Assembly (NCBI RefSeq): GCF_003601975.1
Contig: NZ_QZWZ01000002.1
Location: 186,001-250,000 of the forward strand
Source: Mesorhizobium waimense
GTDB lineage: Bacteria > Pseudomonadota > Alphaproteobacteria > Rhizobiales > Rhizobiaceae
DNA: 64,000 bases
Direction: 5' to 3'
This document shows positions 36,401 through 39,166 of this stretch, in pieces; the first letter of the stretch is position 1; each line of letters begins with the position of its first letter. A model generated the notes under the pieces. That model was not told where the DNA came from, did not search any database, and saw only the letters and a list, made by a program, of their open reading frames with translations. Made by a program: the position numbers and the translations under genes.

Positions 36401-39025
36401 TCACACCGCCGCGACGAACCCGTCCAGCACGCGCTTCTGGCCGGCCTTGTCGAAGTCGATGGTCAGCTTGTTGCCTTCGATGGCGGAAATGTTGCCGTTG
36501 CCGAATTTCTGGTGGAAGACGCGGTCGCCGACGCTGAAGGCCGATGGCGTGTCGGCGACGGATTTGGCGACCAGCTCGCCGTCGATGGTGCGGCCCTTGA
36601 CCGAGGTGCGGCCGGCGCCATAGCCGGAGTCGGTCTCGCCATAGCCGATGCGCTCGACCTGGTGGCCGGAGCGCGAGCCCCAGTTGCGGTCCGTCGCCTC
36701 GGTGCGGTTGGCTTGAGCGCGCTGCCAGCCCGGCGTTGCATAGGTGTTGGAGAAACTCCCCGTCTTTTCCTCGCCGACAGTGTCGAAACGCGAGGTGCCG
36801 TAGGGGTTCTGGCGGCCACCTCGGCCCGAGGCGAACGAGCCGCCGCCGTAGGAATTGCCATAGCCACCATAGGAGTTGCCGCTTTCGGCAACGTCGACAT
36901 GGGCTTCCGGCAGTTCTTCGAGGAAACGTGAGGGGATGGTCGATTGCCAGAGACCGTGGATGCGGCGGTTGGAGACGAACCACAGATGCAGGTTCTTCTT
37001 GGCGCGGGTCAGGCCGACATAGGCCAGCCGGCGCTCTTCCTCCAGGCCGGAGCGGCCGCCTTCGTCCAGCGCACGCTGGTGCGGGAACAGGCCTTCCTCC
37101 CAGCCGGGGAGGAATACGGTCTCGAATTCGAGGCCCTTGGCCGAATGCAGCGTCATGATGTTGACGGCGTCGAGCTCCGCATTCTGCTCGGCGTCCATGA
37201 CCAGCGCGACATGTTCGAGGAAGGAGCGCAGCGATTCATACTCCTCCATGGAGCGGATCAGCTCCTTGAGGTTTTCCAGCCGGCCCGGCGCTTCCGCCGA
37301 GCGGTCGTTCTTCCACATGTCGGTGTAGCCGCTTTCCTCGAGGATGGTCTCGGCAAGCTCGGTGTGCGGCGTGGTTTCCAGCGCTTTCTGCCAGCGCTCG
37401 AAATTGGCGGCGACTTCACGCAAAGCCGCGCGCGGCTTCGGCTTCAGTTCGTCGCTTTCGGCAAGCTTGGCGGCGGCCTCCAGCATCGGAATGCGAAGCG
37501 CGCGCGCCGTGTCGTGGATTTGGCGGATGGTGGCTTCGCCGAGGCCGCGCTTCGGCACATTGACGATGCGCTCGAAGGCGAGGTCGTCGGCGCCTTGCGC
37601 GACGACGCGGAAGAAGGCCATGGCGTCGCGGATTTCCAGCCGTTCGTAGAAGCGCGGGCCGCCGATGACGCGGTAGTTGAGGCCGAGCGTGACGAAGCGG
37701 TCCTCGAATTCGCGCATCTGGAAGGAGGCGCGGACAAGGATGGCCATGTCGTTGAGATTATGCCGATTCCCTTGCTTATCGGGGCGCTGGTAGGCCTCGA
37801 TGGTCTCGCCAACGGCGCGCGCCTCCTCCTCGGAATCCCAGGCGGCATGGACATGCACCTTGTCGTCCTCGGGCTCGTCGCGGTCGGTGAACAGCGTCTT
37901 GCCGAAGCGGCCCTCATTGTGGGCGATGAGATGCGAGGCGGCACCCAGTATGTGCGCGGTCGAGCGATAGTTGCGCTCCAGCCGGATAATGGTGGCGCCC
38001 GGAAAATCCTTGTCGAAGCGCAGGATGTTGTCGACCTCGGCGCCGCGCCAGCCATAGATCGACTGGTCGTCGTCGCCGACGCAGCAAATATTGACGGTGG
38101 CGCGGGCTTCGGCCGAAGAGCGCCCAATCTCCCCCACATGGGGGGAGATCGGCCTGCCGCCGGCGTTCGCGCTTTTGCCCACACCTTCCGGCCGCTGCGC
38201 CAAGAGCCGCAGCCACATGTATTGCGCGGTGTTGGTGTCCTGGTACTCGTCGACGAGGATGTATTTGAAGCGCTTGTGATATTCCTTCAGCACGTCCGGA
38301 TAGGCGCGGAAGATGCGGATCGGGTGGCACAGCAGATCGCCGAAATCGCAGGCGTTCAGCGTCTGCAGCCGATCCTGATAGGCCTTGTAGAGTTCGCGGC
38401 CCTTGCCGTTGGCGAAGCTGCGGGCGTCGCCCTCAGGGATGTCGGCGGGGCCGAGGCCCTTGTTCTTCCAACCGTCGATCATCTGGGCGAACTGCTTGGC
38501 CGGCCAGCGCTTGTCGTCCAGCCCTTCGGCCTGGATGATCTGCTTGATCAGGCGCACGACATCGTCGGTGTCGAGGATGGTGAAATCGGATTTGAGCCCG
38601 GCGAGCTCGGCATGGCGACGCAGGAGCTTGACGCCGATCGAGTGGAAGGTGCCGAGCCACGGCATGCCTTCGACATTGCCTTCGCCGATCAGGATGCCGA
38701 TGCGCTGCTTCATCTCGCGCGCGGCCTTGTTGGTGAAGGTGACGGCGAGGATCTGAGAGGGGAAGGCCTTGCCGGTGGCGAGGATGTGGGCGATGCGGGT
38801 GGTGAGCACCCGCGTCTTGCCGGTGCCGGCGCCGGCCAGAACCAGAACCGGCCCTTCGGTGGTTTCCACCGCTAGCCGCTGCTCGGGGTTCAACCCCTTC
38901 AGATAGTCGGGCGCGTTGTTCTGACCGCTGCGGGCGGCCATGGCGCGCGCAGCGATGCCGGACGGGGCCGCGGGCCGCGCATTCGGTTCGTCAAAAAAGG
39001 GCATGTCTTCCGAAAAGCCGGACAT
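36401..39025 (-). CDS. uvrD: UvrD/PcrA-type ATP-dependent DNA helicase II
   Basis: UvrD is the 3'-5' helicase of nucleotide excision and mismatch repair. The 874-residue protein has Walker A AGAGTGKT (64-71), TFTNKAAREMKQR, Walker B LVDEYQDTN, motif III GDDDQSIYGWRGA, NYRST and motif VI VGLTRAKKNL, and a Gly/Ser-rich region before a C-terminal tudor-like domain (SVGDRVFHQKFGNGNI). I chose ATG 39025 (MSGFSEDMPFF); ATG 39004 is an alternative. Between motifs II and III an extra segment of about 28 residues (residues 279-307) is encoded by a palindromic repeat inserted in frame. Confidence 0.94.
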   Translation of the reverse strand: MSGFSEDMPFFDEPNARPAAPSGIAARAMAARSGQNNAPDYLKGLNPEQRLAVETTEGPVLVLAGAGTGKTRVLTTRIAHILATGKAFPSQILAVTFTNKAAREMKQRIGILIGEGNVEGMPWLGTFHSIGVKLLRRHAELAGLKSDFTILDTDDVVRLIKQIIQAEGLDDKRWPAKQFAQMIDGWKNKGLGPADIPEGDARSFANGKGRELYKAYQDRLQTLNACDFGDLLCHPIRIFRAYPDVLKEYHKRFKYILVDEYQDTNTAQYMWLRLLAQRPEGVGKSANAGGRPISPHVGEIGRSSAEARATVNICCVGDDDQSIYGWRGAEVDNILRFDKDFPGATIIRLERNYRSTAHILGAASHLIAHNEGRFGKTLFTDRDEPEDDKVHVHAAWDSEEEARAVGETIEAYQRPDKQGNRHNLNDMAILVRASFQMREFEDRFVTLGLNYRVIGGPRFYERLEIRDAMAFFRVVAQGADDLAFERIVNVPKRGLGEATIRQIHDTARALRIPMLEAAAKLAESDELKPKPRAALREVAANFERWQKALETTPHTELAETILEESGYTDMWKNDRSAEAPGRLENLKELIRSMEEYESLRSFLEHVALVMDAEQNAELDAVNIMTLHSAKGLEFETVFLPGWEEGLFPHQRALDEGGRSGLEEERRLAYVGLTRAKKNLHLWFVSNRRIHGLWQSTIPSRFLEELPEAHVDVAESGNSYGGYGNSYGGGSFASGRGGRQNPYGTSRFDTVGEEKTGSFSNTYATPGWQRAQANRTEATDRNWGSRSGHQVERIGYGETDSGYGAGRTSVKGRTIDGELVAKSVADTPSAFSVGDRVFHQKFGNGNISAIEGNKLTIDFDKAGQKRVLDGFVAAV
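38100..38186. repeat. Palindromic repeat inserted in frame in uvrD
   Basis: ATCTCCCCC (38127-38135) and GGGGGAGAT (38141-38149) form a perfect nine-pair stem inside the coding sequence, flanked by GCGGGCTTCGGCC and GGCCTGCCGCCGGCG. The encoded residues (GVGKSANAGGRP then ISPHVGEIGRSSAEA) break the usual short link between the helicase sequence LLAQRP and NICCVGDDDQ. The stem type resembles the C5/G5 palindromes found between rhizobial genes, such as that at 29951-29966. The exact ends of the insert are uncertain by about ten bases. Confidence 0.6.
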
Positions 39026-39166
39026 TGCCCCGAATGTAGTGATTCGGCAGCGAAAGGCCAGAAGTGTCTCCGTTTTGTTCTGGTTTGTCAGCGCTATTTT
39101 CGGTCGCCGTGCGATCATTGTCGCCCCGGCGCCCGACATTGCGTGCAAAAGCCCGTCCGCCAGCCC

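Follow-up and report, generated by a model that had tools for sequence, protein, structure and literature searches.

The UvrD helicase encoded in the analysed window, a 64,000-nucleotide stretch of Mesorhizobium waimense DNA, carries between its motifs II and III a palindromic repeat that belongs to a family dispersed through the genome and is read in frame as part of the protein. The best explanation, to which a probability of roughly 0.77 is assigned, is that a selfish-type palindromic repeat was inserted in frame in this loop and has since been shortened between its hairpins, and that the loop is a tolerant hotspot for several repeat families.

Results

The uvrD gene and its insert

A minus-strand open frame extends from 36401 to 39148, within which the 874-residue UvrD was read from 39025 (Table 1). 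Both Pfam domains scored above the cut-off (UvrD-helicase, PF00580, 291.6 bits; UvrD_C, PF13361, 219.5 bits), and with its N- and C-terminal UvrD-helicase domains present the protein belongs to the UvrD/PcrA helicase family. The NCBIfam equivalog models gave 761.6 bits for pcrA (911.2 needed) and 631.1 bits for uvrD (1144.45 needed). In VIA-align the protein matched PcrA (3pjr) with a Z of 33.4 (591 aligned, rmsd 16.5) and UvrD (2is4) with a Z of 32.7. The domain arrangement in the AlphaFold model is not trusted, because the mean pLDDT was 73.7 and the pTM 0.50.

Table 1. Features of the uvrD gene and its motif II-III loop, in window coordinates.
Feature	Position	Strand	Basis
uvrD (SF1A helicase, UvrD/PcrA type)	36401..39025	-	874 residues and stop; open frame, Pfam
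Motif II DEYQDTN, residues 259-265	38231..38251	-	invariant columns, 40-sequence alignment
Motif III region GDDDQSIYG, residues 317-325	38051..38077	-	invariant or nearly invariant columns, 40-sequence alignment
Repeat-derived insert, residues 278-309, from helix after motif II to strand before motif III	38099..38194	-	unaligned to E. coli UvrD; pLDDT
Repeat hairpin, arms 38124-38135 and 38141-38152	38124..38152	-	inverted repeat; 26 exact sites in genome
Second small inverted repeat adjoining the hairpin	38102..38123	-	82% complementary

In a phmmer comparison with solved structures, residues 42-277 and 310-711 of the window protein aligned to residues 7-238 and 240-642 of the E. coli UvrD chain, so that the 32 residues in between (278-309) stand opposite a single residue of E. 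coli UvrD. The hairpin has 12-nt arms with 11 of 12 positions paired (92% complementary) and 5 nt between them, and the uvrD reading frame is open across it, which confirms the central claim of an earlier, sequence-only reading of the window, a palindrome in frame inside uvrD between motifs II and III. That reading had described a stem with C5/G5 arms; the stem is real, but its arms are longer. It had also placed the repeat at 38100-38186, with about 28 residues (about 279-307), which is close to the extent given by the alignment. The extra residues are predicted to be mostly without structure, with an AlphaFold pLDDT below 50 at residues 282-307, between a helix (266-276) and a strand (312-318). 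On the RecA-like domain, the motif II-III loop presumably sits on the side facing away from the ATP and DNA sites. The RNA of positions 38100-38190 (minus strand) folded at -49.8 kcal/mol (z -3.06), with none of 200 shuffles as good, and an Rfam search of positions 37900-38400 gave no match at E up to 1. A GGCCGAAG stretch within the second inverted repeat also stands at the start of loops of the F4 type described below, the link to F4 being drawn by eye.

A dispersed repeat, probably shortened in the window allele

A search of the 8.15-Mb genome for exact hairpins of the form TCTCCCCC-N2..9-GGGGGAGA yielded 26 sites and the reversed control none, and therefore the window hairpin is not a product of chance. 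The genome search suggested by the sequence-only reading thus reveals a dispersed family. A BLAST-type search of the same genome with the window repeat gave at least 46 matches, the strands of the palindrome being counted separately. When TG was added to its second arm, the hairpin turned up in 137 of the 144 genus genomes, with 0 to 234 matches per genome (median 76.5) and no match of the reversed control throughout. The copies outside uvrD share a common consensus of about 50 bp, and many of the places listed are inverted pairs. None of the 16 fetched genomes with at most 8 repeat copies has a window-family loop in uvrD, and genomes with such a loop have more copies (median 100 vs 64, p 0.0017, uncorrected for relatedness).

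Relatives such as the one at locus L081 have a full two-hairpin element in a 228-nt loop, with flanks similar to those of the window allele. In the window loop, of 105 nt, the start of the first hairpin region is fused to the end of the second, and the loop is 123 nt shorter, a number divisible by three. The comparison of these alleles suggests that the window form arose by an in-frame deletion in a two-hairpin element and not by a separate insertion. At locus L005 most of the hairpin has been lost as well.

The motif II-III span across relatives

The span was counted in residues from motif II to DDDQSIY. For the class sample 72 genomes were drawn, of which 64 matched, and 28 of the 29 newly fetched loci were parsed. 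The span is 35 residues in all 27 parsed loci from other orders and 40 residues in the sole locus from the same order. The 80 best-matching named Hyphomicrobiales loci, which are no even sample, yielded 79 parsed ones; the span is 35-47 in 48 of these (Rhizobium, Agrobacterium, Bartonella, Stappia, Methylobacterium and others) and at least 54 in 31 (Mesorhizobium, Aminobacter, Aurantimonas, Ensifer BR816, Bradyrhizobium, Rhodopseudomonas and others). Among these best 80, the closest loci are those of Mesorhizobium and other Hyphomicrobiales. The uvrD query matched all 146 Mesorhizobium genomes; the gene was fetched from 130 of them (16 left out) and parsed in 127. Within the genus the span ranges from 40 to 127 residues, apart from one probable artefact, and the loop is longer than 25 residues in 122 of the 127 parsed loci. 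Near-empty alleles, with 9-residue (27-nt) loops, occur in three genomes (L123, L128 and L129). Locus L080 (G003:C80:229501-235091) contains several hundred C, then G, in frame inside the uvrD loop, which is probably an assembly artefact.

Judging from this distribution, the short span is the ancestral state. The short span elsewhere and the DNA match to a dispersed family support the proposal that the segment is inserted repeat DNA rather than an old loop. An identical extra segment in most relatives had been named as the observation that would speak against insertion; most relatives do have an extra segment, but their sequences differ. Aligned with other Hyphomicrobiales over motifs II-III, the window segment appears as an insertion relative to the short span, but it is neither fresh nor unique. 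The idea of an unusual single event is not supported, given the long loops in most of the genus, their several families and the probable status of the window copy as a deletion derivative.

One site, several repeat families

The length profile comprised 256 UvrD sequences, with the core defined as 663 residues of the window protein and the C-terminal linker left out. The interval after motif II varied from 3 to 95 residues (SD 23.2) and was more than 15 residues above its minimum in 180 of the 256 sequences; the SD of the next most variable core interval was 1.4. In this set, no core site other than the interval after motif II varies greatly in length. Altogether 5 of 268 loci were unparsed, 4 of the 263 parsed rows (L096, L222, L228 and L232) stand off the 259-row tree, and 3 of the 259 rows, L080 among them, were left out of the length profile; some genomes are present twice in the 259-row set, as unnamed and named loci. 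The long state (more than 25 loop residues) was found in 178 of the 259 rows and corresponds on the core tree to 9 gains and 8 losses at equal costs, and to 4 or 12 gains under two other costs.

Thirteen loop types were named by the authors' own peptide patterns, the label F4 pooling several subtypes; types F5-F8, F10, F12 and F13 were left out of the copy-number tests. Five loop types are dispersed repeats, namely the window type, the SSPLEGEV and SPSMGEV types of Mesorhizobium, and the VIPGR and SPRxRGE types of Bradyrhizobium. A joined query for the SSPLEGEV and SPSMGEV types gave at least 63 matches in genome G137, at least 51 in G120 and at least 60 in G016, and among the matches listed the near-full-length further copies were 79-86% identical for the former type and 83% for the latter. 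For the Bradyrhizobium VIPGR and SPRxRGE types, at least 19 and at least 43 matches were obtained in two genomes and at least 67 in one, the query behind the last figure also holding a second repeat and these counts, like those of the joined query, including both palindrome strands. In the Bradyrhizobium locus L298 (G390:C58:388473-389676), the tail of the uvrD loop is of a second repeat type, with 88-98% matches of about 30-50 bp elsewhere in the genome.

The commonest type, F4 (86 of 259 rows), is weakly repetitive: among the matches listed, one long match besides uvrD (75-78%) was present in four of five genomes, plus short weak ones. It had been expected to be highly repetitive, which these few and weak matches outside uvrD ruled out. 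At locus L291 (G117:C1:1038909-1041009), F4-like sequence occupies positions 1001-1101, in the gap directly after a frame that is taken here to be asd (aspartate-semialdehyde dehydrogenase).

Turnover of the loop relative to the gene core

Across 122 genus genomes, loop family follows the uvrD core tree hardly at all. On this DNA tree 41 changes of loop family were counted, compared with a mean of 49.2 and a minimum of 43 in 100 label shuffles, and the nearest core-DNA neighbour has the same loop family in 64 of 122 cases (chance about 0.38). The alignment of loci L122 and L108 covers 6.3 kb in two pieces, one 95.8% and the other 97.7% identical, and their loops are unrelated. In seven further pairs with different loops the pieces align at 92.6-98.3%, relatedness being judged here from these alignments.

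Within families, the loop was more alike than the gene core in 21 of 21 pairs for F3, 40 of 92 for F2, 15 of 75 for F1 and 58 of 956 for F4, and over all families in 134 of 1144. Mutual identity among the F3 loops averages 94.5%; among the matches listed in one genome, the best near-full-length copies of the F3 repeat outside uvrD reach 83%, and a 55-bp piece 91%. Since their mutual identity is higher than that to other copies, the F3 loops probably share descent at uvrD. Polymorphism predating speciation was considered for F3 and set aside, as the loops exceed the cores in identity in all pairs. This holds for F3 alone; ancestral polymorphism is possible for F4, because its mean loop identity (0.747) is below that of the core (0.880). 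A recombination tract was sought in the 60 bp beside the loop; same-family pairs showed no raised identity in the tested windows, so recombination tracts are not visible there. The turnover may be read as replacement together with exchange over very short tracts.

Reading frame, peptide composition and selection

No frameshift or stop allele was found, also not among the three unparsed loci of the 130 in the genus. In these three the assembly breaks inside the uvrD loop: L111 (G101) is joined to unrelated sequence at the hairpin, L085 (G050) reaches a contig end, and L103 (G139) has an N gap. A, P, S, G, R and E are abundant in the loops, where disorder-promoting residues make up 78.8% (177 loops without L080) vs 51.5% in the core. 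Outside uvrD, the half-element has a stop in 0 to 3 of 15 copies per frame; being open in most frames, the insert is readily coding.

The dN/dS of the loop was 0.37 (0.31-0.43) vs 0.065 for the core in 56 disjoint pairs, three of which are one sequence present twice. In the uvrD frame, pN/pS was 0.76 (0.47-1.22, n=15) for half-element copies outside uvrD and 0.66 (n=28) for those in uvrD. Because the copies outside uvrD give a similar pN/pS with a wide interval, constraint at the protein level is not claimed from the loop dN/dS, and this interpretation was set aside. The loop dS (0.18) was lower than the core dS (0.305), a difference that is not leaned on, being restricted to pairs with loops differing by at most 25% and at most 9 nt in length. 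The term domesticated, applied to the repeat by the sequence-only reading, lacks support here, as the pN/pS is indistinguishable from that of the copies outside uvrD and three genus genomes have a loop of just 9 residues.

The same repeat in cobN and cobG

A repeat was regarded as in frame when there were no stops, third-position G+C exceeded second-position G+C by more than 0.2, and one frame continued on both sides. Of 23 hairpin places in the own genome (L274, at a contig end, was not assessable), those in uvrD, cobG and cobN are in frame on both sides. CobG scored 439.3 bits with TIGR02435 (cut-off 234.8) and CobN, a partial protein, 824.9 bits with TIGR02257 (cut-off 822.05). The in-frame repeat of cobG (precorrin-3B synthase; L280, G000:C213:321049-323177) lies about 3 kb from the cobN insert. 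In cobN (L281, G000:C213:323853-325963) the two-hairpin repeat is in frame.

The CobN query matched 139 of 144 genus genomes; in 69 of them the match spans the entire query, insert included, and in one other a shorter stretch of it. All 25 parsed loci of the best 30 contain the two-hairpin insert. Of 16 further loci, chosen mostly as apparently insert-free, 12 were parsed; at this same position they show near-empty sites and remnants as well as two other inserts and a further long one. With these loci (L281, L300-L345), cobN is a second hotspot with a pattern similar to that of uvrD.

Discussion

According to the best explanation, a selfish-type palindrome would have entered the UvrD loop in frame, and an in-frame deletion between its two hairpins would have followed. 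If the loop tolerates long disordered peptides, unrelated palindromes landing there in an open frame could survive, and the loop repeats would then decay by deletion, be replaced or be exchanged between species. Insertion would proceed by a mobile-element mechanism, with selection demanding no more than an intact frame and a harmless peptide at a presumed surface position, and loops may be exchanged through homologous recombination that uses the conserved flanks as anchors. Neither a target-site duplication nor a transposase was identified for the uvrD insert in what was no systematic search. This negative result, the weak repetitiveness of the commonest loop type, the flanks of same-family pairs with no raised identity and the small share of pairs whose loops are more alike than the core (134 of 1144) count against this explanation, and the loop dN/dS below 1 could mean that the peptide matters.

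The same dN/dS would fit an adaptive diversifying cassette, in which new loops are favoured, for example for partner binding or inhibitor escape, and the repeats are raw material kept for function. Such a cassette also agrees with loop families scattered over the core tree almost at random, with unrelated loops in closely related genomes and with F3 loops that exceed their cores in identity, as expected if loops move between species. However, no partner is known, near-empty alleles persist, pN/pS does not distinguish the uvrD repeats from other copies, and the unrelated enzyme CobN has similar turnover, which suggests supply and tolerance; adaptive diversification is accordingly regarded as doubtful. 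A little more room may be left, tentatively, for the wider idea that the motif II-III loop serves as a site for exchangeable cassettes, where repeats supply new peptides and loops, uncoupled from the remainder of the gene, travel between species by very short recombination, possibly with selection favouring diversity in this DNA-repair helicase, whose own substrates are DNA structures.

It is unlikely that the loop is simply an old hypervariable protein loop, selected for length or charge, which picked up repeat-like sequence incidentally. Loops longer than 25 residues in 122 of 127 genus loci, the dN/dS below 1 and the weak repetitiveness of F4 would be consistent with such a history, but the uniform span of 35 residues in other orders, the DNA match to dispersed repeats in the five families tested and the near-empty alleles within the genus argue against it, leaving it room at most in F4 and the types outside the copy-number tests. 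Nor is there much to recommend recurrent site-specific insertion, by which an enzyme would recognise conserved DNA around motifs II-III and each family would insert afresh at one codon. The use of one site by several families in separate clades is what it predicts; the F3 loops, however, are 94.5% alike compared with 83% for the best near-full-length other copies (among the matches listed in one genome), and unrelated families would each require an identical target. An element acting at the RNA level, with the hairpin affecting pausing or stability of the uvrD mRNA and the peptide as a by-product, would explain the strong fold of the window allele (z -3.06) but is highly improbable, given that F4 loops are of another sequence type, that the 27-nt short alleles are too small for such a hairpin and that Rfam gave no match.

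The preferred reading of an inserted selfish-type repeat has precedents. Rickettsia palindromic elements are described in two reports as dispersed palindromes of about 105-150 bp that are tolerated in frame in conserved protein genes (PMC2229807, PMC10969869). The comparison with them drawn by the sequence-only reading appears apt, as the window repeat is likewise a dispersed palindrome (26 exact sites, control 0) in frame in several protein genes (uvrD, cobG and cobN), a likeness judged by description. Unlike them, the present families belong to Hyphomicrobiales and not to Rickettsia, several unrelated ones share one protein site, and turnover occurs within the genus. The Rhizobium intergenic mosaic elements (RIME) and the AB/C palindromes of Sinorhizobium, with dozens of repeats per rhizobial genome, are described as intergenic (PMC2573895), which by description sets them apart from the copies read inside genes here.

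REPs of the CGTC and GTAG superfamilies are palindromes of 20-40 bp marked at one end by the tetranucleotide CGTC or GTAG. In the half-element, the window hairpin and the window insert, neither tag is present on either strand; the Bradyrhizobium VIPGR-type loop has, by eye, a CGTC beside its stem. In a 2013 report, such REPs occur inside open frames, with UvrD/REP helicase listed among the repair genes; recB of two Xanthomonas species has a REP at about one site, and in other genes of the same category REPs are at different sites (PMC3733652). In-frame palindrome insertions, also in a UvrD/REP helicase, are already in print; the word Mesorhizobium does not occur in the main text of that report. 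In the open-access literature no report was found of the Mesorhizobium families as protein-coding palindromes, of unrelated families converging on one UvrD site with rapid turnover, or of a decoupling of the UvrD loop from the rest of the gene.

On the practical side, three genomes have an assembly that is interrupted inside the uvrD loop. Summing up, the observations described here represent protein evolution by repeat insertion that recurs at a single site in a conserved repair enzyme, and more than 100 related genomes with different alleles, near-empty sites included, allow the conversion of selfish palindromes into protein sequence, and any function that they may acquire, to be studied as a natural experiment.
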